A program made the translations under genes and the position numbers. A stretch of DNA of 56,444 nt from a virus. The DNA lies in the IMG/VR virus record IMGVR_UViG_3300019360_000010, positions 1-56,444 of that record. One strand, written 5' to 3'. Position 1 is the stretch's first letter, and every line of letters starts with the position of its first letter. Below, one piece after another: positions 2,105-26,286 of this stretch. Below the pieces are notes generated by a model, which saw nothing but the letters and a program-made list of their open reading frames with translations, was not told the DNA's origin and did no database searches.

Positions 2105-4078
2105 TCACTTACACTCGCCCCAGTGCGCACCGCGCTCCGCCTCGGCGATGATCGGTACGCGCAACGTGATCGCGGTCTCCATCAGTCGCTTTACCTCCTT
2201 CGCCGCCGCGTCGCCGGCCATCGTCTTCGGCACTGACCAGTCCAGCTCGTCGTGGACGGTGAGGAGCGGTGCGCCCAGTATACCGCAGCAGCCCGCGTCC
2301 CAGATATCCACCATCGCCTTCTTCATCAGGTCGGCCGACCCGAGCTGGAACAGGCGGTTCATCGCCGTGTACGTGTGAGCCCGAACCAGCACCTCCCCTG
2401 GGTACTCCTTTTCGGCGCGACCGCGTGGCAGGGCCGGCACGCGATCTTTCATCTTCTTCCGGCCGTTCGAGGCCGGTTCCCACAGGGGGAAGCGGGCGAA
2501 CCGGCCGAGCACGGTCTTGATGTATCCGCGCTCGGCCGCGCGGCGCTGAGCGAGGTCGAAGGTCTCCTTCGTCCAGGGGCAGGCGGCTTCGTATTCCTTT
2601 ACGAACGCCTCGGCCTCCGTGATCGAGCAGCCGAAGGTGACCGCGAGCTTCGGTGCCATCGCGCCATACTTCTTGGCGAAGTTGGTGTTCTTCACCTTCT
2701 TCCGCTTGATTTTGTCCTCAGGATCGACGTGCAGCAGCTCCGCGATGAACTTGTGATAGTCCGTCTTCGGATCGTTGACGTACTTCAGGCGGAACTCGCG
2801 CGCGCCGCGTCCGACCGCGTAGTGCGCTTCGAACCTCACCTCGATCTGGGAGTAGTCGTCGCGTTCCCACTCTTCATCTTCCTCGGGGATGAAAAGACTT
2901 CTGACGAGAGGACCCAGCCGCTCGTCCCTGGCCGGTATGTTCTGAAGGTTGGGGTTAGAGCTAGAGAACCTTCCGATCGTTCCACCATCGTCGGACTTGA
3001 GCTGGTGAAACTCGGTGTGGATGCGTCCGTTGACGTTGTGCTCAAATATGTAGGTATCAACGAAGGTCTCCTTGCACTTGTCGAGGGAGCGCGCGTCGAG
3101 CAGCAACTTCAGCACCGGAAACCGCGATGCCATCTCCTTCAACCACTCTTTCTTGATCGACCACTTGCGCGTCTTCTCGGTCATCGGAACCGGGATGTCC
3201 ATCGCGGCGAGCGCCGCGCCGAACGAGTCGGGCGCGAACAGCTCGGCCTTCGGGCAGGCGGTCAGCCGTCGGAACTCGGCGTGAAGCGCGTCGCGCTCGG
3301 CGCCGAGTTCGGACGACACCTCCTCCGCGCGGCGCAGATCCACGCGGACGCCGCGCCGGCGCATCGCGAGAAGGATCGGGATCAGGCGCGACTCGAGATC
3401 GAACAGTTCCATCAGCTGCTGCTCGTGCAGCGCGGTCTCTTGCCGTTCGAGGACGCGCAGGGGTAGGTCCGCGTCACCCTCGCCGTACGCGCCCACGAGC
3501 TTGGCCGGCAGCCGCCATAGGTTCGTCTTTACCGCCTTATTCGTGGTGCCGAAGCCCCAGGCGATCGCCGCCGCCTTCAACAGGTCCTCGCGCTTCGACT
3601 CGCCGAGCCAGGTCCGCGCGAGCGCGTCGAGGTTGTACTCGAGCCGGTGTTCGTCCAGCAGCGGCTCGGCGACCTGAACGTCGCGGAACCGGCGTGCGTT
3701 CTTGAAGTGGATACCGACCTCCGCCATGAAGTCGAGGTCGTACAGCAGCCCGGCACCGACTACCTCACCGGAGAACTTCGCGGCCTCGGCCGTCAGCCAG
3801 CGCTCGACCATCCGGGCGTCGAGGTTCCCGCCGCCCTCGTGGCGAACCGGGTAGTACGCGCGCCGGCCGTCATCGGTGCCGATCGCGTACCCCACGATGA
3901 ACGCGCCGCGCCGAACGCCTGGCCCGAGAACGTCCAGTCCGACGTCCTTGGTCTCTACGTCGATCGCGAGACGTTTCACACCCTCGAGGTTCATGAAACC
4001 GCTCGGCGGTTTCCAGTCGCTCTCCGGTTGGAACAGCGGCAGTTGGGTCCGATCGGTCGGCTTCAACGTGCGGGTCAC
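2105..4078 (-). CDS. Family A DNA polymerase with 3'-5' exonuclease domain
   Basis: A 657-aa PolA-type replicative polymerase without the 5' nuclease domain, the usual phage form. Exonuclease motifs: Exo I AIDVETKD (Asp40, Glu42), Exo II around LLYDLDF (Asp114/Asp116), Exo III YGEGDADLPL (about 198-207). Polymerase motif A is DDYSQIE (407-413), motif B is KVKNTNFAKKYG (461-472), motif C is VHDELDW (608-614). The residue equivalent to E. coli Phe762 is Phe467, so dideoxy sensitivity should resemble E. coli Pol I. All catalytic acids are present. The GTG start at 4078 overlaps the dCMP deaminase stop (GTGA). It would copy the genome from primers made by the PrimPol-like protein. Confidence 0.95.
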   Translation of the reverse strand: MTRTLKPTDRTQLPLFQPESDWKPPSGFMNLEGVKRLAIDVETKDVGLDVLGPGVRRGAFIVGYAIGTDDGRRAYYPVRHEGGGNLDARMVERWLTAEAAKFSGEVVGAGLLYDLDFMAEVGIHFKNARRFRDVQVAEPLLDEHRLEYNLDALARTWLGESKREDLLKAAAIAWGFGTTNKAVKTNLWRLPAKLVGAYGEGDADLPLRVLERQETALHEQQLMELFDLESRLIPILLAMRRRGVRVDLRRAEEVSSELGAERDALHAEFRRLTACPKAELFAPDSFGAALAAMDIPVPMTEKTRKWSIKKEWLKEMASRFPVLKLLLDARSLDKCKETFVDTYIFEHNVNGRIHTEFHQLKSDDGGTIGRFSSSNPNLQNIPARDERLGPLVRSLFIPEEDEEWERDDYSQIEVRFEAHYAVGRGAREFRLKYVNDPKTDYHKFIAELLHVDPEDKIKRKKVKNTNFAKKYGAMAPKLAVTFGCSITEAEAFVKEYEAACPWTKETFDLAQRRAAERGYIKTVLGRFARFPLWEPASNGRKKMKDRVPALPRGRAEKEYPGEVLVRAHTYTAMNRLFQLGSADLMKKAMVDIWDAGCCGILGAPLLTVHDELDWSVPKTMAGDAAAKEVKRLMETAITLRVPIIAEAERGAHWGECK

Positions 4079-4524
4079 AGCAGCCGTATCCCCTCATACC
4101 GAAGCCAGGTTCGACTCGGCAGGCGTTCCCACAGCGCGCGGGCGGCCGCGTCGTGAGCGTACGGCACGCTGAACACGATCCGGGTGCACGCGGTGTTCAT
4201 CAGCATCTTGACGCAGTGAACGCAGGGCGAGTGGGTAACGAAGCACGTGTGGATGCGCGCCGGGTCCGGGCAGCGGATCAGCGCGTTCTGCTCGGCGTGA
4301 ATCGCCTCGCACTTCTCCAAGCCCTCCCCGGACGGATACGCCGCGCCGACGCAGGGCGTATCGACGCAGTGAGGCTGACCGGCGGCGGGTCCGTTGTACC
4401 CGGAACTGAGCTGGTATCCGTGATGATCGAACAGGACGCAACCCACCTTCCGTCGCCGGCACGTGCCCATGTCCGCCCAGCTATACGCGAGACGCAGGCC
4501 GAGAAGATCGCGATCGCGGTTCAT
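4075..4524 (-). CDS. dCMP deaminase (zinc-dependent)
   Basis: A 149-aa cytidine/deoxycytidylate deaminase. HAE (76-78) and PCVHC (100-104) are the zinc ligands and catalytic Glu. The N-terminal CRRRKVGCVL and the GYNGPAAGQPHC segment are typical of dCMP deaminases. It converts dCMP to dUMP for dTTP synthesis, and phage enzymes are often regulated by dCTP/dTTP. The ATG at 4522-4524 overlaps the stop of the thymidylate-synthase-family gene (ATGA); an upstream in-frame extension was rejected. It sits between the polymerase and the TS-like gene. If that neighbour uses dCMP rather than dUMP, the two enzymes would compete for dCMP. Confidence 0.93.
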   Translation of the reverse strand: MNRDRDLLGLRLAYSWADMGTCRRRKVGCVLFDHHGYQLSSGYNGPAAGQPHCVDTPCVGAAYPSGEGLEKCEAIHAEQNALIRCPDPARIHTCFVTHSPCVHCVKMLMNTACTRIVFSVPYAHDAAARALWERLPSRTWLRYEGIRLL

Positions 4525-5342
4525 TGCAGCACCGCCGGCCGGCGCAGCTCCATCAGCCAACGCGGGTAGGTGGGCCCAACGTCGTTGGCGTTCGCCCAGA
4601 GCTGCTGGAGAAGATCAGCGTCATCGCTGAACCAGTCGAGGTCGAGCGGCGCGTATCCCGGGTGAAGCGCTTCTTCGGACTTCACGCACACCCGGGACAA
4701 CGCCGCGTTCTTCTCGTAGAGGTGCTGGCTGCCGGCGGTCAGGTACAGGTTGCCGAGATCGATGTCCTTGATCCAGGGTCGAAGGCGCAGCGCCAAGAAA
4801 GCGCTGATCATCGAGAAGCTGTGAACGTCGTACGGCCAGCCGAGCCACGCGTCCGACGATCGCATGGTCGCGAGGCAGTGAAGCCGGCCGTTCCGGATCA
4901 TCCACTGCAGCGCGACCGTGCAGGGTACGTCCACCGACTTCAATGGGCGCGGTCGCCAGATCGTCAGTACCGCCTGACGCGAGTAGGGATCGTCCATCAA
5001 CGATCGCCAGACGTACGGCAGCTGGTCGATCACCGGCGGACCATAGGCTCCGGAAAGCGTAACGAGATCGTCGCTGAACTTCGCGTAGCTCGGCGCGTAC
5101 TTCTTCAGCGGCTCGAGCCGGTTGTCGCCGGACAAGATCCACGCGGCCTCGGCGCAGGCAAAGTTCCGGCTGAGCGTGCGCTGGTGAACCGTGATGAACG
5201 GTTGGTTCATCGGCACGATCGTCCGATACGCGAACAGCTCGCGGGTCGCCAGCCCACGCGGACTGACGACGTTGCCGGTCTCGAGTAGGTCCTCCAGCAG
5301 CTTCGTCCAGACGTAGTTCACGTCGAGCGTCATGTGCGTCAC
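4521..5342 (-). CDS. Thymidylate-synthase-family enzyme, possible dCMP hydroxymethylase
   Basis: A 273-aa ThyA-fold protein. The catalytic loop is DVPCTVALQW with Cys141. The phosphate-binding Arg lies in DPYSRQAVLTIWRP, and RSSDAWLGWPYDVHSF aligns with E. coli RSCDVFLGLPFNIASY. HLYEKN carries the His/Tyr that contact the nucleotide. The residue equivalent to E. coli Asn177 (L. casei Asn229), which selects dUMP, is Asp172. Asp at this place is the known signature of T4 dCMP hydroxymethylase (Asp179). Thr also replaces the His that usually follows the catalytic Cys. The protein may therefore make 5-hydroxymethyl-dCMP rather than dTMP; this is inference from one key residue. The GTG at 5342 overlaps the upstream stop; an ATG at 5331-5333 is an alternative. 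Confidence 0.85.
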   Translation of the reverse strand: MTHMTLDVNYVWTKLLEDLLETGNVVSPRGLATRELFAYRTIVPMNQPFITVHQRTLSRNFACAEAAWILSGDNRLEPLKKYAPSYAKFSDDLVTLSGAYGPPVIDQLPYVWRSLMDDPYSRQAVLTIWRPRPLKSVDVPCTVALQWMIRNGRLHCLATMRSSDAWLGWPYDVHSFSMISAFLALRLRPWIKDIDLGNLYLTAGSQHLYEKNAALSRVCVKSEEALHPGYAPLDLDWFSDDADLLQQLWANANDVGPTYPRWLMELRRPAVLQ

Positions 5343-6391
5343 GCGATCGCCTCCCGTATTATCTTTGCGTATTCCATCGGGTCGTGATGGAACCGCCGGT
5401 GAAACTGAGGGTGCGGCAGATGAACCGTGTTCTGACCGCGCCCGCCGTACGCGTCCAGCGCCACGCGACCCATCACGATGACCTTTCGCCACTTCCGCGT
5501 GAAGAGGATACGGCGCATCCGATCGTCGGCTTCCTTCGTGAAGGACGGTCGCGCGTTCGTCCAGATGCCGAGCGTCTCGTCGAAGTCGAGTAGCTGAAGC
5601 GCGGCGTTCACGTACGTCACGGCCGACAACTGATCGTTCCAGACGAACGGCCAGGTCGGCTGACCGGGCTTCACCTGCGGCGATACCTGCTCGCCGACGA
5701 ACAACAGCTCCTGATCGGTTCCGGTTCGCGGCCGTCCGTTGATGTTCTGCGTCGTGTAGTTTAGGCAGTGCTCGAACTGCTTGTCGCGTACGTAGGCCAG
5801 CTGACCAATGATCCGGTCAGCCGCTCGTTTGATACCGCCGCTCACCTGCGAGTACGAGGGACTGGTGTAGTCGTATACGAACGTGTCGTCACGAAGGTTA
5901 AAATGGTTCTTTCGCGTCAGCGTTCCAAGATATCCCGGGACCTGACCCGCGAACCGGTTACCGTGAGTAACTTCGTGATAGAGCTGGATCACCTTTGAGA
6001 TGCTACGGAACTTTTCGGTGCCCGCCGCCCAGCGGTCAGCGTGAACCTTCAGCTGAGCGTTGACGTCAGAAGGGACGCAGAGAACGTACAGCGCGCCGTG
6101 CTTGCGCAGGACGCGATCGATCGATCGAGCACCGAGGTCGTACGCCGGACCACCGCGAAACACCAGCCCATAGATCAACTCGCTGAGCCAGTGCCGGTCA
6201 AGCACGACGAGGTGGTGATCGGCAAGCTTGCACGCGAGGTTCAGCGCGCCGAGGTGCCAGCGCCAGATGTCGCGCCGAACGGTCGAGTGAAGATAGCGCG
6301 CGCCGTACTTCTCTCGGAAGTAGTTGGCGAGCGTCGTCTTGCCGGACGCGTCCGCGCCCTCCAGGACGATGATGCCGCGCGGCGGTGCCAT
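5339..6391 (-). CDS. Fusion of P-loop (deoxy)nucleotide kinase and uracil-DNA-glycosylase-like domain
   Basis: A 350-aa two-domain protein. Residues 6-195 form a thymidylate-kinase-like P-loop domain: Walker A GADASGKTT (12-20), VVLDRHWLSELIYG (62-75) like the DRY/DRH loop of dTMP kinases, and a lid-like Arg stretch near 115-130. Residues 225-350 resemble the family 4/5 uracil-DNA glycosylase fold: LLFVGEQVSPQ (229-239) with G-Q-P-x-W-P-F downstream, a TNARP segment (278-282), IVMGRVALDAYG (305-316), and HLPHPQFHRRF (324-334) in place of the usual HPS motif. It overlaps the MazG-like stop as TGATG. Plain reading: a dNMP kinase with a base-recognising domain. The domain could act on damaged or modified bases, or bind nucleotides without catalysis. 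Confidence 0.8.
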   Translation of the reverse strand: MAPPRGIIVLEGADASGKTTLANYFREKYGARYLHSTVRRDIWRWHLGALNLACKLADHHLVVLDRHWLSELIYGLVFRGGPAYDLGARSIDRVLRKHGALYVLCVPSDVNAQLKVHADRWAAGTEKFRSISKVIQLYHEVTHGNRFAGQVPGYLGTLTRKNHFNLRDDTFVYDYTSPSYSQVSGGIKRAADRIIGQLAYVRDKQFEHCLNYTTQNINGRPRTGTDQELLFVGEQVSPQVKPGQPTWPFVWNDQLSAVTYVNAALQLLDFDETLGIWTNARPSFTKEADDRMRRILFTRKWRKVIVMGRVALDAYGGRGQNTVHLPHPQFHRRFHHDPMEYAKIIREAIA

Positions 6392-6831
6392 CAGTCGGTT
6401 CCTTCCCAGCCGGCGGCGCGCAGCGCCTTGCGGTGGTTCGGTGCCAGCCAGCCGGCCGGCTTCACCACGTCGAGCGAGTGGCCGCGCTTCGATCGCGGAT
6501 CGGCCGCCGAGATCGCGCGTTCCTTCAGCATGTTCTTGTACTGAACCTCGCGCCAGATGGCGTCGAACGGCAATCCCATCAAGTGCGCGGTTCCCAAGGC
6601 GACGTAGACCAGATCGGCGAGCGCGTCTGCCATGTTCGGTATGCTGCCGGTGTCGATCGCCTGAACGAACTCGTCCAGCTCCTCCTGCATGAACTTGATG
6701 CGGAACGCCAGCACGTCCGCCTCGGGCAAGTTCACCTTGACCGAGGGGTAGTAGTCCAGACCGAACTTCACGTGAAACTCGGCCACGTCGCCGAACATGT
6801 CCGGCGCGTCGGGGTTGTTCAGGTAACCCAT
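6391..6831 (-). CDS. MazG-like nucleotide pyrophosphohydrolase
   Basis: A 146-aa all-alpha NTP-PPase. FMQEELDEF (Glu50, Glu51, Glu54) and MADALADLVYVALG (Asp69, Asp73) form the E-E-x-x-E ... D-x-x-x-D magnesium site of MazG/PRA-PH proteins, and a GLPFDAIWREVQYKNMLK helix follows. Such phage enzymes hydrolyse dNTPs or alarmones to the monophosphates. Beside a TS-family enzyme and a dNMP kinase it probably supplies dNMP substrates or removes an unwanted dNTP. The start is the ATG at 6829-6831 after GGAGCTAGGATC. A second MazG-like gene lies at 19560-19967. Confidence 0.85.
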   Translation of the reverse strand: MGYLNNPDAPDMFGDVAEFHVKFGLDYYPSVKVNLPEADVLAFRIKFMQEELDEFVQAIDTGSIPNMADALADLVYVALGTAHLMGLPFDAIWREVQYKNMLKERAISAADPRSKRGHSLDVVKPAGWLAPNHRKALRAAGWEGTD

Positions 6832-6835
6832 GATC

Positions 6836-9448
6836 CTAGCTCCTCATCACCAGTGATAGTGCGTTACAGACCTCGTCCTCGGTCATCATCACGCGCTCGA
6901 GCTGCTGCGCCTGCGACTGCGCCAGCCCGTCAAGGTTGGCGTCACTCATCATCTCTACCTTACGCGCGTCCGCCGCCGCGATGTACGCTGGACCCAGCAC
7001 CGCCGCCTCGTCCGGGTGGGCGGACAGGACGCAGCCGGCGTCCGCCGCCATGAGATACCGGACGCGCCACCAGCCTGAACCGGGGTGCGTGTGCGCGGGC
7101 GACAGGACGCCGCGCACCTTCGCGTACTCGTTCATCAGCTCCGGTTCCGTGACGCGCGTCTCCGCCGCCCGCTCGCCGGACTTCCCGGCCCCTCCCCTGC
7201 CCCGGCCAGCGTTGCCAAAGAACTTGACCGGCCAGGTCAACCTGACAGGGGGAGGCTTGAGGAGGAGCGACGCCTGTACCCAGGCGCGCTCGCGTGACGG
7301 AGGATCGGCCGGCATGGGGTATCGCGGCGTGAAGACGGTCGGATCGACTCCCCACGCGGTCGCCGGCACGCCGAGCTTGGTCATGTCACCGCCACGGAAC
7401 ACCGGGAAGATCGCCGGCCAGGGCCACGTCTTCTCGGTAGCGAGATGCTTCAGGCCGTCAAATAGTTCGGTATCCGTTTCGGAAACGTCGTCGAGACCGG
7501 ACCGTTGAAACAATCTGAACGCACGTCGACGGTCACGCGCGCATGACTGGATACCGGGTAAGACGGCCCGGGTCTGCCAGTCGTCGAACGCGAGGATGGC
7601 GTCCGGACGCTTCAGCAACGTCCACAGCGCGCCGTAGAAGTGCTTGCTGACGATGGCGTTCGGCTTGTTGAGGATAACGAAGCAACGGTGATACGCAGAC
7701 ACGTCCTCGCCGGGCGCGACCGGTCGCCAGTCTACCGCGTATCCCATCTTCTCCAGCGCCACCTTCCAACCGGTCGCGGCGGTAAGGATCTTGAGTTGGG
7801 TGTGCGGGCTGCCGACCTGGATCGGGGTGCAGCCGGTAAGAAGGATCGTGTTCGCGCCGATCATCCGGTTCGTTGGCGTCGCGGCGCGCGGTGCGGCCGC
7901 CGCGCGCGGTGCGGCCGCCGACTTATCCGCGTTCCACGGCTTCAGATCGGGATAGCGACCATCATCGACTAGCTTGCGGTAGTTGTAGTAGATGTCACTG
8001 ATCTTTGTCGTGCGACCCTCGTAGTTCTGGTGAACGAGCGCGAGGATCTGACTCGGCGAGTTCCAGCCGTGCAGCAGCAGCCGCTTGATGTACCGACCGG
8101 AACCCTCACCGGGCGCGGGTGGCGCGTCGCTGGCCGTGATCAGCTCGCCGCTCGACGCGACGACGCGCGGCGCTCGCGCGACGGGTGCCGGCGCGGGCGC
8201 GTCGCGTACGACCGCCGGTCCGAACTCGTCGAGCGGATCACGCGGACGGGTCAGGTCCGGTCCGAACTCGTCGAGCGAAGCTGGCGGTGACGATCGTATC
8301 TTCTTCGGTCCGTACTCATCGTCGATCAGTTCATCGTGAACGATCAGTAGTTTCGGTGCGCTCATGACTCGTTCTCCCTTCATCGGTCGCGGACTCACGT
8401 ACTCCTTGGTCAGATCGATCGTCGGCCGGTCCAGTTCGCGCAGGTCGAGGCGCGTCACCGTGGTCTCCGCGCCGATCGGATCGAGCATCGTCGCGGCAGC
8501 GGCGCGCGCGAGCCACGCGCCGACCGGCGGCATCACCGCGCGAGCGAGAAGCGATGCCCGTCCGCCGGCCGGTCCGTCGAGCTGGAACTCCTGCGGATAC
8601 CCGCACAGCGCCTTCGACTCGTTGTCGCCGATCTTCCGTCCATCGTCAGGATGGTAGAACTTGTCGCCGGTGAACGCGCCCATGAGACCGTTCGCATCCA
8701 ACCGCCGGTCCTGAAACGAGGGACGCCCGCGCATCTTCCCGTCGGTGTCGCGTTCTTTATCCGGGTTGAGACGGTCGAACACGGTGGATAGGCGCTCGCC
8801 GGGACCAGCGAGCCGGGACAGTTCTACCAGGTCCGCGCGGGTCGCGGATGCGACGCCGGGCGTCTTGGCCTCGCGCAGCGCTTCGCCCACGGTCGTCGGC
8901 GGTGCCCAGTTGAGCTGGTACCCGGACAGGCGCGAAGCGCGATGCCCGACGAGAAAGAACCGCTTCCGCTCCTGCGGCACGCCATGCCACTTCGCGTTGA
9001 TGAATAGGTGCGTGACCGAGTATCCGAGCGACCGACCGCGCCAGGTAAGTTCGTCGATCAACGGGCGGCCGGTTCCGTACGCCTGCGTCACCGACTCGAT
9101 CGCCCACACCGATGGCTGGATGTTCTCCACCAGCTCGAAGCAGTCAAGCCAGCAGCCGAGCCGAGCGTCTTCCTTCCAGGCGTCGCGTCCGCGCGTCATC
9201 GCGATCCCCATCGTAGAGAATATCGCGCAGGGCGGGTTGCAATACAAGAAGTCGACCTTGTCGCGGTAATCGTCTACCGGCCACTTCGCCTTCGGATAGA
9301 AGATCGGAAGATCCGGCCAGTTCAACCGCGCGGTTGACACGCCATAATCGTTGCCCTCGAAGTGTGCGAGTACGTCGAAGTGTTGTTGGACGCCGGTGGT
9401 GAAACCGCCGGCGAAGATGTACGCGCCGAGCGCGGTCGGCTTACGCAT
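6836..9448 (-). CDS. Cytosine-C5 DNA methyltransferase fused to glycosyltransferase-like C-terminal domain
   Basis: An 870-aa open frame. Residues 1-330 are a Dcm-type C5 methyltransferase: motif I AYIFAGGFTTGV, motif IV CNPPCAIFS with catalytic Cys74, motif VI WAIESV (Glu118), motif VIII GVPQERKRFFLVG. A disordered region (about 362-470) has repeated DEFGP motifs. A helical DNA-binding-like segment (about 455-510) and an Ala/Pro linker follow. Residues about 550-870 look like a GT-B glycosyltransferase: AWGVDPTVFTPRY near 700 and GSGWWRVRYLMAADAGCVLS near 790-810, the pattern of a sugar-nucleotide-binding C-terminal half. An internal ATG at 8363-8365 with GAAGGGAGAACG upstream would give a separate 509-aa C-terminal protein in the same frame. 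The GT assignment is moderate, the methyltransferase firm. Confidence 0.85.
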   Translation of the reverse strand: MRKPTALGAYIFAGGFTTGVQQHFDVLAHFEGNDYGVSTARLNWPDLPIFYPKAKWPVDDYRDKVDFLYCNPPCAIFSTMGIAMTRGRDAWKEDARLGCWLDCFELVENIQPSVWAIESVTQAYGTGRPLIDELTWRGRSLGYSVTHLFINAKWHGVPQERKRFFLVGHRASRLSGYQLNWAPPTTVGEALREAKTPGVASATRADLVELSRLAGPGERLSTVFDRLNPDKERDTDGKMRGRPSFQDRRLDANGLMGAFTGDKFYHPDDGRKIGDNESKALCGYPQEFQLDGPAGGRASLLARAVMPPVGAWLARAAAATMLDPIGAETTVTRLDLRELDRPTIDLTKEYVSPRPMKGERVMSAPKLLIVHDELIDDEYGPKKIRSSPPASLDEFGPDLTRPRDPLDEFGPAVVRDAPAPAPVARAPRVVASSGELITASDAPPAPGEGSGRYIKRLLLHGWNSPSQILALVHQNYEGRTTKISDIYYNYRKLVDDGRYPDLKPWNADKSAAAPRAAAAPRAATPTNRMIGANTILLTGCTPIQVGSPHTQLKILTAATGWKVALEKMGYAVDWRPVAPGEDVSAYHRCFVILNKPNAIVSKHFYGALWTLLKRPDAILAFDDWQTRAVLPGIQSCARDRRRAFRLFQRSGLDDVSETDTELFDGLKHLATEKTWPWPAIFPVFRGGDMTKLGVPATAWGVDPTVFTPRYPMPADPPSRERAWVQASLLLKPPPVRLTWPVKFFGNAGRGRGGAGKSGERAAETRVTEPELMNEYAKVRGVLSPAHTHPGSGWWRVRYLMAADAGCVLSAHPDEAAVLGPAYIAAADARKVEMMSDANLDGLAQSQAQQLERVMMTEDEVCNALSLVMRS

Positions 9449-15186: not shown

Positions 15187-16152
15187 TCACATCTCGGGCT
15201 GAGGACCATCGCTCTCACTACCGTCGCCGCTCTCGGCGGCGTCGACATCGTCCGACGACATCTGGTTGTACTGCGCGTTGAGCTTCCCGTCACGCCACGA
15301 CGTATACATCTCGCGGCCGAGGAGATAGACCGGGTGGTTCGCCGGCAGCCGCGAGGCGATCGGCGTCTCGTTCAGCATCGAGGGCTGCCACGCGTAGTAG
15401 GTGCCCTTCTTTCCCTTGACGCTGACGGTCTTCATCCGCCAGCGGTGCGACCAGAGCGGATACGGGATCAACTGCCCGTTGTTGTTGTAGCGCAGACCGT
15501 TCAGCAGCGTGATCATCTGCTTGTACACCTTGATCTGCGAGCTGGCGTACGCGATCACGCCACGCGACGGCATCGGTTCGTCTTCGCTCTGATCGAGGAA
15601 GTGACCGAAGAGGTAGTACGTTTCGATCAGCTCCTTGTCGTCACCGGTCGGCAGCTTGCCGAAGCGGTGATCGTTCGGCCGCTTGCCCTCCTTCCAGAGC
15701 CGGTCCGCGCGGCGCTGGCAGTCGAGGACGACCGGATCGTCGGGCAGGTACAGACCCTCGAAGCCGCCGCCCTTGTCGCGCGGGGTGAACTTGGCGAAGT
15801 TATGCTCGCGGACCGCCGGGATGAAGACCACGCCTTCCTTCGAGTCCCAACGCTGCTGCGTCGCCACGTTGATGATCTGCCCGGCGACGGCACCCGGGAT
15901 CAGGTTGTCCGCGATCGCCGGAGACAACGCCTGGAGGATGCGGTAAAACGGAACGACCTGTTCCTCGTTCCCCACGTTCTCCATACCGCCCGACGCGTCG
16001 GCCGCGTAGGCGGACGGATCGGTCAGGTTCGTCTCCTTTCGCTCCGTCACCGCGAAGCTCGGTTCCTTCGGCAACGTCGAGGCGGAAGCACCGCTGGCCG
16101 CGTCCTCGTGGAGTTCGGCGACCTTCTTAGCAGCTGGTTTCGTCTTAGTCAT
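15187..16152 (-). CDS. Hypothetical 321-aa phage replication-region protein
   Basis: Starts MTKTKPAAKKVAELHEDAAS at the ATG at 16150-16152, behind GAGGAAC. The N-terminal 60 residues and the C-terminal 25 (acidic, DDVDAAESGDGSESDG) look disordered. The middle (PFYRILQALSPAIADN, GVVFIPAVREHNF, YYLFGHFLDQSE, WSHRWRMKTVSVKGKKGTYY) is a folded beta-rich domain. An acidic flexible tail is a feature of phage ssDNA-binding proteins, so an SSB role is a reasonable guess. I see no clear OB-fold signature. A longer start at 16186-16188 exists without a ribosome-binding site. Confidence 0.7.
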   Translation of the reverse strand: MTKTKPAAKKVAELHEDAASGASASTLPKEPSFAVTERKETNLTDPSAYAADASGGMENVGNEEQVVPFYRILQALSPAIADNLIPGAVAGQIINVATQQRWDSKEGVVFIPAVREHNFAKFTPRDKGGGFEGLYLPDDPVVLDCQRRADRLWKEGKRPNDHRFGKLPTGDDKELIETYYLFGHFLDQSEDEPMPSRGVIAYASSQIKVYKQMITLLNGLRYNNNGQLIPYPLWSHRWRMKTVSVKGKKGTYYAWQPSMLNETPIASRLPANHPVYLLGREMYTSWRDGKLNAQYNQMSSDDVDAAESGDGSESDGPQPEM

Positions 16153-16371
16153 GTTTCGTTCCTCGTAAGGTTGATCGTTGACAGGCATCGGTTCGCCGGT
16201 CTGTCCCGGCCGTCAGGTAGTCGTTCGCCTCCTTAGGTGGTGGGGATAACGCTGGGGAAAGCGGGGAAGGTCTTGCCGCGATCGGGGCGCGACCTTTTAC
16301 GACCGAGACTGCCTTCTCTCGCGTCAACCCGCTCCCGACGCGCGGAACGCTGCATACGAACCGGAACCGGA
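16153..16371. other. 219-bp intercistronic region without a convincing gene
   Basis: A TTG-initiated 60-codon minus frame (16145-16327) and an ATG-initiated 40-codon frame exist, but both are Pro/Arg-rich without supporting signals and are probably chance. A perfect TAAGGAGG lies on the minus strand at 16231-16238 with no start codon at the right distance. A promoter for the genes below could be here; a TTGACG hexamer is near 16327 but no good -10 follows. Confidence 0.5.
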
Positions 16372-17976: not shown

Positions 17977-18225
17977 TTAAAGTTCGTGCCCGGTCTCGTC
18001 CAGGCCGTTGATCCGATCGCGCAGCGTCGCGAGAAATACCCGCGCGGTCGGCGTCATCACCAGCATGTGTCTCATCTTCTCGCGACAGGTCTTCTTGTCC
18101 ATCAGCTTCGACGGGTCGGGGTATCGTTGCGTTCCGGTTATCGTGCGCGCGGTGTAGCTGTTCCGCAGCGCGTTCGCTTGATCGGTCAGCGCGTTCTCCT
18201 GGTACACGGACCAGTACGGCCTCAC
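17977..18225 (-). CDS. Hypothetical 82-aa protein
   Basis: GTG at 18223-18225 overlaps the stop of the SGNH-like gene (GTGA). It begins MRPYWSVYQENALTDQANAL and includes DKKTCREKMRHMLVMTPTAR. Basic and helical, no membrane segment. Coupled translation with the SGNH-like gene is the only functional clue. Confidence 0.6.
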   Translation of the reverse strand: MRPYWSVYQENALTDQANALRNSYTARTITGTQRYPDPSKLMDKKTCREKMRHMLVMTPTARVFLATLRDRINGLDETGHEL

Positions 18226-19208
18226 GGCAGCTGCTCCCGGACGATCCGCGCGATGAACCGGTGGCCAGCCGGGCTTGGGTGCCCGAGCTGCCCGTTCTCG
18301 TTGAGCCAGAGGATGAACCAGTCATCGCGGTTCAGGCTCTTAAGGCGAGCGCGGTACTCGTCCCACGTGTCGATCACGCGCAGCCCGGCGCGGTCCGCCG
18401 CGTATATCACTCGGTTCACGTACCACGGTCGTATTTCTTCGGTCAGCTCGCCCGCGCCGTACATCATCACGATGATCCAGTACTTCGGAACTTTGACCAA
18501 CAGCAGCTCGGTCACCCTCACCGCCTGCTCGTCAGTCAGTACCTTCTCGTACTTCGCGTCGTGAACCCAGCTCGTCGGGTACAGTCGACGCAGCGCGGCG
18601 TGGATCGCGTACGAGTAGCTCAACCAGTTGAACCGGCGTTGATGGTTCGTCAACGCGTTGATCGCCGTAATCGGTTGCCGGTACAGCTCGTTTACGACCG
18701 GTGTGAGCAACGGCTTCGTACCGCCGCCGTAGACCCGGTAGGCGTTCCGCAGCGTGTCCTGCGACAGGAAACCGATGATCGTGCCGAGTGACGCAAAAGC
18801 TTGAAGCTGATGCGCGCGCAGGATGATCTGATCCGCGCCATATCCGCCGACCGCCGCGTTGAACGTCGAGACGTCGAGAAGTGCGGGCCACGTCTCCTCG
18901 TCGCGAACGCCCGATCCGGCCGTGAACGAGTCGCCCACGACCAGGTACGCTGATCTTCGCGAGCCGGAGGGCCGGCGAAACCCGAGGTGATCCGTGTTCA
19001 TCCCGTCCGAGACGAAGTTTGCCCGGTGCCGCCAGCCCACGTCCGCGTCGAACTCGATCACGTTTGCGTTCGCGCGCAACAGGCTGATCTCGCGCTCGAG
19101 GAAATTCTCGGTCGTCAGTACCGGCACGCCCGCGAGGGCGCGCAGGCCGAGCTCGATCGACGCGAGCGAGATGAGGACGGATAAGATCAGCAGCGTTCCG
19201 TTTACCAC
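18222..19208 (-). CDS. Membrane-anchored SGNH/GDSL-hydrolase-like protein
   Basis: A 328-aa protein from the GTG at 19206-19208. Residues 3-27 (MVNGTLLILSVLISLASIEL) form an N-terminal membrane anchor or signal. AYLVVGDSFTAGSGV (88-101) is the SGNH block I with nucleophile Ser94, NAAVGGYGADQ is block III-like, and GHPSPAGHRFI near the C-terminus supplies a block V His. The acid usually three residues before that His is Gln here, so activity is not certain. Related membrane SGNH proteins add or remove O-acetyl groups on periplasmic polysaccharide or LPS. In a phage early operon this could change the host surface and block superinfection. It overlaps the upstream stop by 7 nt. Confidence 0.7.
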   Translation of the reverse strand: MVNGTLLILSVLISLASIELGLRALAGVPVLTTENFLEREISLLRANANVIEFDADVGWRHRANFVSDGMNTDHLGFRRPSGSRRSAYLVVGDSFTAGSGVRDEETWPALLDVSTFNAAVGGYGADQIILRAHQLQAFASLGTIIGFLSQDTLRNAYRVYGGGTKPLLTPVVNELYRQPITAINALTNHQRRFNWLSYSYAIHAALRRLYPTSWVHDAKYEKVLTDEQAVRVTELLLVKVPKYWIIVMMYGAGELTEEIRPWYVNRVIYAADRAGLRVIDTWDEYRARLKSLNRDDWFILWLNENGQLGHPSPAGHRFIARIVREQLP

Positions 19209-19540
19209 AGCCGCGCGCTCCTCACCACGTACCGCGTCTCGTCGTTCCGCCAGGACAGCGTCTTGAGGTGACCGTTCAGCTGCTTGGCGGCGATCGCCAT
19301 GGTCCACCCGATCAGTTCCGGCGCACCGACGCAGAGGATGAAATCCTCCTCCGTCAGGTCCGCCAGCTTCGCGGTGATCCCCTGGATCGTTGCGGTCGGG
19401 TCGAGCCCGAACATCCCAGGGGAGGTGAGGAACACCAGCTCGCCGAAGTCCTGAGCCGGCGTCAGGTCGATGCGCGGTTTATGCGTCCGGGTGACCGGAT
19501 CAAACTTGGTGGGCTCCTGGACGATATAGACCTTGGGCAT
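19202..19540 (-). CDS. Hypothetical 112-aa protein
   Basis: ATG at 19538-19540 behind GGAG. Starts MPKVYIVQEPTKFDPVTR, with a conserved-looking DFGELVFLTSP and EEDFILCVGAPELIGWTMAIA. This is a small globular alpha/beta protein of a type often seen in phage early regions, of unknown function. Confidence 0.7.
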   Translation of the reverse strand: MPKVYIVQEPTKFDPVTRTHKPRIDLTPAQDFGELVFLTSPGMFGLDPTATIQGITAKLADLTEEDFILCVGAPELIGWTMAIAAKQLNGHLKTLSWRNDETRYVVRSARLW

Positions 19541-24994: not shown

Positions 24995-25213
24995 GTGGCT
25001 CGTAACAAAGACGGCAACATGAACAAAGAACCTCCTCGCGACATGTTTTCGCCAAAACAGGTCGCGGGTTTCAAGGCATTTCTTTCAAGCAGAAAGGATC
25101 ATAAACCGCGCGACACGCACGCTATCGCAAAGAAAGCCGCCGCGACGCGCAAGGCCCACGGTTCGGGTCTCTCCGGCAACCTCGCTCGCGCCGGTGCCCA
25201 CGCGAAGCGATGA
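24995..25213 (+). CDS. Hypothetical 72-aa basic protein
   Basis: GTG at 24995 behind AGGAGGTAGAG. Starts MARNKDGNMNKEPPRDMFSP and is rich in Lys, Arg and Ala towards the C-terminus (AIAKKAAATRKAHGSGLSGN). Highly charged and probably nucleic-acid-binding or disordered. It overlaps the O-antigen-ligase-like gene (ATGA). Confidence 0.6.
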   Translation: MARNKDGNMNKEPPRDMFSPKQVAGFKAFLSSRKDHKPRDTHAIAKKAAATRKAHGSGLSGNLARAGAHAKR

Positions 25214-26286
25214 CGTATTTCTTCGGCGCTCTCATCACCGCCTTCTATCTCCCCTGGTATCCTCGATCGGGTGTCGAGTTCCGCTGGGTGGTGATCCTGG
25301 TGGGCATATCGGCGCTGATGTGGGCCGAACGTCGAGAACTGCCGTGGACGTTGGCCGTAAAGCTGTTCGCGGCGTTCTACGTCCTCGCCACCTGCTCACT
25401 GGCCTGGTCGGACTACCCGTTGTTGTCGATCGGTCGTTGGTTTGAGCTGACGGCGCTGGCGGTCGTGTTCTATCTCGGTGGCGTGCTGGAACGCGTGGAT
25501 GAGCTGCTGACCGGGTTGATCATCGGTCTGGTGCCGTCCGTACTGCTGCTGCCGTTTCAGCTCGCGGGCTGGTCGCCGGTCGAACAGTGGTCCGTACCGG
25601 CGGGGGTTTTCGTCAGTAAGCTGCAGCTCGTTGAGGTAGCGGTCCCGCTGTTGTTCGTATCGGTTGCGCGCGGTTGGTGGTGGAGCGCGCTGATCTGCGC
25701 CTCAGCGGCGATCCTGCCGTCCGTGCGTGGCGCGTGGCTGGCGCTCGTCGTGACATCACTCATCGCGATGACGCGCCGGCCACGTTGCGACTGGCGCTGT
25801 CTAACCGGCGCGACGTGTCTGTTACTGTTGTTTGCCGTCGCGTTGGGGGTGCTGCTGAACCCGATCACCGTTCAACACCGGTTGCTGATCTGGTCCGAGA
25901 CGATCGCCGCCCTCACGCCGCTCGGCCACGGGCTCGGTTCGCACCTCCCGGTGTACGGCGCGGCGCACGCGCACAACGACTTTCTGGAGATCGCATACGA
26001 GCTCGGTGTACCCGGCGTGATGTTGTTCGTCGTGGCGATATCGTCGTTGACGCGGTTCGGTGGAGAGTGGCATGGTATCGTCAGTCTCGTCATCTTGTCG
26101 CTTACCTCTTTTCCCCTTCAAAATCCGGCGTCGAGCGTGGTGTTCGCGTTGCTTGCTGGCGGTCTGGCTGTTGATCGTTGGCGCGCATGGTACGATGATC
26201 GTGATGAGCGAGATCGTGTTCGTGAGGAGCTTTTCGCTGACGTCCGACGATCGCCCGCTGGCTATCCGGTTCGCGGCCGCTCTTGA
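25210..26286 (+). CDS. O-antigen ligase/polymerase-like polytopic membrane protein
   Basis: A 358-aa protein with about ten hydrophobic spans. SVRGAWLALVV (171-181) resembles the Arg-Gly loop of the WaaL/Wzy family, and AHAHNDFLEIAYELGVPGV (252-270) is the Wzy_C signature (H-x-H-N-x-x-L-x-x-x-x-E-x-G). Family members join polysaccharide repeat units or move O-antigen to lipid A core in the inner membrane. A host-derived surface-polysaccharide enzyme in a phage late operon could change LPS to stop released virions from adsorbing to debris or kin. It lies directly below the NusG-like gene. The ATG overlaps the upstream stop. The C-terminal 30 residues overlap the next gene in another frame. Confidence 0.78.
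   Translation: MTYFFGALITAFYLPWYPRSGVEFRWVVILVGISALMWAERRELPWTLAVKLFAAFYVLATCSLAWSDYPLLSIGRWFELTALAVVFYLGGVLERVDELLTGLIIGLVPSVLLLPFQLAGWSPVEQWSVPAGVFVSKLQLVEVAVPLLFVSVARGWWWSALICASAAILPSVRGAWLALVVTSLIAMTRRPRCDWRCLTGATCLLLLFAVALGVLLNPITVQHRLLIWSETIAALTPLGHGLGSHLPVYGAAHAHNDFLEIAYELGVPGVMLFVVAISSLTRFGGEWHGIVSLVILSLTSFPLQNPASSVVFALLAGGLAVDRWRAWYDDRDERDRVREELFADVRRSPAGYPVRGRS

Follow-up and report, generated by a model that had tools for sequence, protein, structure and literature searches.

A phage open reading frame that joins a cytosine-C5 methyltransferase-fold domain to a GT-B glycosyltransferase domain, with a candidate role in cytosine hypermodification

The DNA studied here (the window) is a 56,444-base record of a virus of bacteria. 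On its minus strand, positions 6836-9448 form a single open frame of 870 codons, followed downstream on the same strand by genes for a MazG-like protein, a nucleotide kinase, a thymidylate synthase (TS) family enzyme, a dCMP deaminase and a DNA polymerase. The features considered are listed below, where MT denotes methyltransferase and GT glycosyltransferase.

6836..9448, minus strand: fused open reading frame, 870 amino acids, in the order MT, tether, three-helix domain, GT
8429..9448, minus strand: C5-cytosine methyltransferase-fold domain, residues 1-340 (PF00145; HhaI, HaeIII and CmoX structure matches; motif columns)
8111..8428, minus strand: disordered tether, residues 341-446, containing the reported join (pLDDT)
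7958..8110, minus strand: three-helix (HTH-like) domain, residues about 447-497 (model)
6839..7849, minus strand: GT-B glycosyltransferase domain, residues 534-870, PHROG 14998 family (sequence and model)
8540..8542, minus strand: codon of Arg303, at the position of HhaI Asn304 and SpCmoX Arg350 (profile alignment)
8363..8382, minus strand: out-of-frame TGA at 8382-8380, AAGGGAG at 8380-8374 and in-frame Met362 ATG at 8365-8363, a possible internal start
6391..6831, minus strand: MazG or PRA-PH-like nucleotide pyrophosphohydrolase, candidate dCTPase (PF01503, E 2.8e-14), a conserved neighbor
5339..6391, minus strand: thymidylate-kinase-like nucleotide kinase (phrog_761, E 5.9e-12), a conserved neighbor
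4521..5492, minus strand: TS-family enzyme of the dCMP type, likely start about 5333 (PF00303, E 2.1e-21)
4075..4560, minus strand: dCMP deaminase (PF00383, E 1.2e-15)
2105..4078, minus strand: family A DNA polymerase (PolA), the last gene of this run (PF00476, E 2.5e-57)

The first-pass annotation of this DNA described a C5-methyltransferase fused to a glycosyltransferase-like domain, and profiles, tblastn and fold matches bear out both domain calls in essence; it overlooked the dCMP-hydroxymethylase module around the frame and the Arg in motif X of the MT. Residues 13-315 match PF00145 (E 4.7e-19, 69.4 bits versus a curated cut-off of 22), and a tblastn search of 50,697 phage records with residues 535-868 gave E-values as low as 3e-22, so that the presence of these two domains lies far outside chance. 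An AlphaFold2 model was built from 25 aligned rows, after removal of rows that held only the three-helix domain and had been misaligned to the WWR motif. Its mean pLDDT is 84.6, with values above 90 for most GT residues. Across residues 340-432 and 434-446 pLDDT is below 50, and confidence is low to moderate for the three-helix domain (about 450-495). Third-position G+C is high in both halves of the protein and in one frame, with its sole dip in the block of codons 350-400.

The join between the two halves had been interpreted as two adjacent genes merged by a small indel, with a relic ribosome-binding site left at the junction. The frame does run through GAAGGGAGAACGAGTC into the ATG of Met362, from which a 509-residue product would be made, and the TGA claimed in another frame is present. 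Such a stop is expected, because the +1 frame of the fused ORF is dense with stops. The "relic" is no better than chance: of 166 internal ATGs counted in 16 further long ORFs, 22 (13%) have a Shine-Dalgarno match equal in length to that of Met362 or longer, and true gene starts in the window often have weak matches. One consequence of an active Met362 would be production of the 870-residue fusion together with a free 509-residue GT. The AAGGGAG eight nucleotides upstream of the ATG speaks for this arrangement, which we nonetheless consider unlikely, as equal strength is found at that same share of internal ATGs.

Relatives of the locus bear more directly on the join. Scanning IMG/VR twice with GT alignments yielded 84 loci; L098 and L099 were among those that a third scan added, and 25 loci came from a scan with the MT. 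A nine-row GT alignment was judged too diverse to serve as a query. In the GT tree the window groups with L011, L012 and L098 (support 100/99). In the diverged contig L012 a single frame of 808 codons or more encodes MT, GT and three-helix domain in that order, its 5' end cut by the contig edge. In L098 the MT and GT are two separate genes that overlap by 4 nucleotides (GTGA), and the three-helix domain ends the GT. The edge of the L011 contig lies 91 bases before its GT. The three-helix domain is C-terminal to the GT in L011, L012 and L098 and C-terminal to the MT in L132 and L127; it shares one frame with the MT in L132 (domain E 7.6e-5) and apparently also in L127, where it was recognized by eye. 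No relative among the loci examined has it at the N-terminus of a GT. The one-frame MT and three-helix arrangement of L132 and L127 therefore provides precedents for a chain across the questioned join.

These comparisons leave the earlier proposal partly standing. That the genes were once adjacent is supported by the overlap in L098, which has the two genes that the annotation suggested looking for in relatives, whereas L012 has one frame. A recent indel or sequencing slip is not supported, given the one-frame MT-GT of L012 and the one-frame MT and three-helix domains of L127 and L132. If an assembly or sequencing indel at 8363-8385 had merged separate genes, these would have encoded a 357-residue MT and a 509-residue three-helix-GT protein. 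The natural end of the MT domain near the join, the TGA with its RBS-like string and the unfused genes of L098 would fit such an event. The second product, however, would have a three-helix domain N-terminal to a GT, as none of the relatives examined has, and the RBS match is within chance; together with the one-frame relatives this makes a merging artifact quite improbable. The MT tree places L012 and L098 as sisters (100/99), as does the GT tree with weak support (94/37). The fusion in L012 may therefore have arisen separately, and its support for that of the window is indirect; the trees would allow either two fusions that occurred independently or a single fusion and a split. A second contig with the junction 20-mer was sought and none was found, nor were further relatives of L011 and L012 that would reveal their 5' ends. 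We conclude from the gene arrangements that the join in the window is probably natural and not a sequencing slip.

The GT domain belongs to a family that is widespread in phages. Residues 535-868 are matched in Aeromonas, Erwinia, Gordonia, Morganella and unclassified phages, where the proteins are mostly annotated as hypothetical, and the domain matches the profile of PHROG 14998 (E 4.4e-30), a family annotated as of unknown function. Pfam has no family for it, and sequence alone found no solved relatives. We know of no activity for any member of this family. A portal-protein match in L001, from the first viral scan with the whole protein, was a chance hit. The first-pass annotation had proposed comparing the predicted structure of the C-terminal part with GT-B folds, and it is indeed GT-B: in a Foldseek search T4 DNA beta-glucosyltransferase (BGT) was the top match among solved structures (1qkj, E 1.8e-5; TM 0.49-0.61 to BGT entries), and macrolide and other GTs also share the fold. 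At the sequence level T4 BGT scores E 0.023 against the family profile with filters off, which is not meaningful, with about 10% identity.

The association of this family with cytosine metabolism is seen across its relatives. The order MT-MazG-GT-kinase-hydroxymethylase-deaminase is repeated in about 15 contigs. Counts were made over 61 non-redundant GT loci, with only the flank taken with each locus: a dCMP-type TS homologue occurs at 48, a C5-MT and a MazG each at 35, a dCMP deaminase at 31 and a UDP-galactopyranose mutase at 19. The MT lies downstream of the GT at 22 loci, upstream at 11 and fused at 2. In the alignment, the TS homologue of the window has Asp in place of the dUMP-type Asn, as in T4 gp42, and is weakly similar to both T4 gp42 and RB69 ORF048c; in the family set this dCMP-type Asp and the catalytic Cys are each conserved in 57 of 57 sequences. 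In phage C48C1 the GT is flanked by a TET/JBP oxygenase on one side and a UDP-galactopyranose mutase on the other, and in Morganella phage Rgz1 a member of the family adjoins an arabinose-5-phosphate isomerase. These associations suggest a sugar transferase for hydroxylated cytosine, and in some phages the donors may be furanoses. A search for TET/JBP with C48C1 as the positive control found none in the window or in ten module contigs, and a TET-dependent route was rejected for the window.

Several further observations were made in this neighborhood. Phages DSL-LC01, Sixama and GMA2 (L003 9974-13128, L005 7884-11247 and L006 7878-11554) each encode a further GT of this family, diverged and one or two genes away, which suggests that two successive sugar additions may occur there. 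At 1405-4220 of L011, two more DNA methyltransferase-like genes (N4/N6 type by eye) are interleaved in the module. The kinase at 5339-6391 is extended at its C-terminus by about 190 residues that match no Pfam family and by eye faintly resemble a uracil-DNA-glycosylase fold.

A GT that acts on host surface sugars in seroconversion or receptor masking, its linkage to the MT being incidental, would have to be considered, since the GT-B class is diverse, the fold matches extend to macrolide and other GTs, and the UDP-galactopyranose mutase near relatives would fit surface galactofuran as well. We regard this as very improbable, given that the best solved match is a DNA enzyme of T4, that the dCMP-type TS homologue accompanies the family at most loci, that TET/JBP adjoins the GT in C48C1 and that the GT is fused to a DNA enzyme in two contigs. 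No sugar-nucleotide genes were recognized in the window, so the sugar donor would come from the host; a UDP-galactofuranose donor encoded by this phage was rejected, as no mutase was found. Elsewhere, the window encodes an O-antigen ligase-like protein at 25210-26286 on the plus strand (PF04932, E 3.6e-8), a candidate surface-changing gene, a GDSL-type hydrolase at 18222-19307 (PF13472, E 1.4e-7, slightly under the cut-off) and a Pam3_Gp34-like protein at 15187-16188 (PF23977, E 4.3e-42).

The MT domain has the expected C5 fold and catalytic apparatus. Among the structural matches to the full model are C5 enzymes such as HhaI and HaeIII, and the CmoX structure 8YF3 ranks third. Catalytic Cys74 (motif IV), Glu118 (VI) and Arg161/Arg163 (VIII) are present, and the Cys, Glu and RxR are conserved across the module MT set. 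The Asn of motif X (HhaI Asn304, near the SAM methyl) is absent; its position is taken by Arg303, which aligns with SpCmoX Arg350 in the profile alignment to 8YF3. Of 65 module MT rows, with redundant rows kept, 59 could be scored at this position and have Gln (33), Arg (23) or Lys (3), never Asn. Of eight control phage C5-MTs fetched, Asn is present in six and Met in one. The remaining control, with Lys, is from Micrococcus phage Kurnik (L152 1-2721) and belongs to the module family (E 2.3e-61; its cluster is annotated glycosyltransferase-MazG-methyltransferase), so that Asn is present in six of seven controls without the module. In L133 (3948-5022) the module MT is spread over two overlapping frames, so that this contig has either a frameshift or an MT in genuine decay.

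In SpCmoX, Arg350 replaces HhaI Asn304 and contacts the carboxylate of Cx-SAM; the wild type accepts only Cx-SAM, R350N accepts neither cofactor, E. coli CmoA suffices for the enzyme in vivo, and M.MpeI N374K, with Lys at this position, accepts Cx-SAM (PMC12783734). The N-terminal half of the fused protein could thus be a CmoX-like C5-carboxymethyltransferase that uses Cx-SAM from host CmoA, placing 5-carboxymethylcytosine at some sites while the GT glycosylates hydroxymethylcytosine elsewhere. The position of Arg303, the rank of 8YF3 and the Arg and Lys residues of the module MTs, Lys being the residue with which M.MpeI takes Cx-SAM (PMC12783734), are consistent with this. The Gln of half the family, by contrast, would not bind a carboxylate likewise, and the window MT has NPPC rather than the SPPC of the published CmoX criterion (PMC12783734). 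A phage-encoded CmoA close to CmoX is usual, though not universal. A CmoA search that detected the E. coli control found none in 30 contigs or genomes, and a CmoY-type ligase was found in none of 15 contigs; the window contig, which may be incomplete, yielded neither, nor TET or UDP-galactopyranose mutase. If Cx-SAM is used, the host must therefore supply it. We rate a CmoX-like enzyme as a tentative possibility that is on the whole unlikely. We are comparably doubtful of an ordinary C5-MT joined to a hydroxymethylcytosine GT for co-expression only, whose methylation would shield residual unmodified cytosines: every classical catalytic residue is kept and PF00145 is matched well over its cut-off, yet the motif-X Asn is gone from all 59 scorable module MTs and present in nearly all controls. 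The motif-X Arg makes the plain label "methyltransferase" doubtful, and in view of the motif-X pattern and the missing CmoA and CmoY we file the domain neither as CmoX nor as an ordinary methylase. With a little less than even confidence, we suggest that the module MT-fold domain is not a methylase, and that it may instead add a carboxymethyl group or act on hydroxymethylcytosine; in this phage, where it is tethered to the GT, a single protein could then make two different C5 decorations.

The conserved module around the enzyme makes hypermodification of the phage's own cytosines its likely job, and on balance we favor a genuine two-enzyme fusion with this role. The neighboring enzymes would convert dCMP to 5-hydroxymethyl- (or 5-hydroxy-) dCMP and phosphorylate it while dCTP is removed, and the phage polymerase would build the modified nucleotide into DNA. 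The C-terminal BGT-like domain is predicted to add a sugar onto that hydroxyl. The N-terminal domain, with its non-standard cofactor pocket, would flip cytosines and carry out C5 transfer where plain cytosine remains, and the long tether and small helical domain may keep both active sites on the same DNA. What we observed is the set of domains with their fold matches, the module, the conservation of catalytic residues and the fusion in a second contig; DNA as the substrate, the division of labor, the timing of the steps, the sugar, the cofactor and an escape from host nucleases are inferences. A counterpoint to the fusion model is that complete replacement of dCTP would leave the MT little plain cytosine.

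Hydroxymethylcytosine pathways, DNA glucosyltransferases, C5-MTs and CmoX are already known. In the literature covered, mostly without subscription papers, we found no description of this GT family as DNA-modifying, of its fusion to a C5-MT-fold enzyme or of the motif-X pattern of the module MTs. A widespread phage GT family that is functionless in Pfam and PHROGs thus gains a probable role in DNA hypermodification; it is tied to a conserved hydroxymethylcytosine module, with the cytosine-C5 enzyme of the pathway fused to it. The motif-X pattern raises the question of which cofactor the C5-MTs of the module take, be it SAM, Cx-SAM or another. Should they prove not to be methylases, the label "DNA methylase" would be mistaken for many phage genes beside hydroxymethylase genes, and the fusion would offer a ready-made enzyme for labelling DNA in two steps.

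Phage hypermodification clusters of TET/JBP, C5-MT and glycosyltransferase combine a C5-MT with a GT in a single pathway. The GT family described here has a member adjoining TET/JBP in C48C1, whereas in the window, where the search gave no TET/JBP, the hydroxyl would come from the nucleotide level. T4 BGT and gp42 offer the closest parallel in fold, BGT being the best solved match of the GT domain, and the gene run of the window likewise includes a TS homologue of the dCMP type. It differs in that its GT is of a separate family, of low identity to BGT, and is fused to C5-MT-fold and helical domains. SpCmoX of Synechococcus phage S-B43 (8YF3) shares the C5-MT fold, the catalytic Cys and the Arg replacing HhaI Asn304 (PMC12783734), but the window MT is fused to a GT within a dCMP-hydroxymethylase module, has NPPC and is accompanied by neither CmoA nor CmoY in the contig searched. 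The arabinosyl-cytosine pathway of RB69 and NP (Mosigvirus) (PMC13390438) has in common with the window a dCMP-type TS-family enzyme, and the GT relative of Rgz1 lies near an arabinose-5-phosphate isomerase. RB69 ORF003c, however, was rejected as a member of the GT family because it does not match the GT profile, and no arabinose genes were recognized in the window. Gordonia phages Sixama and GMA2, Actinomycetia phage DSL-LC01 and Micrococcus phage Kurnik have GT, MazG and C5-MT genes close together, the MTs with Lys in motif X; there the GT and MT are unfused, unlike the single chain encoded in the window.
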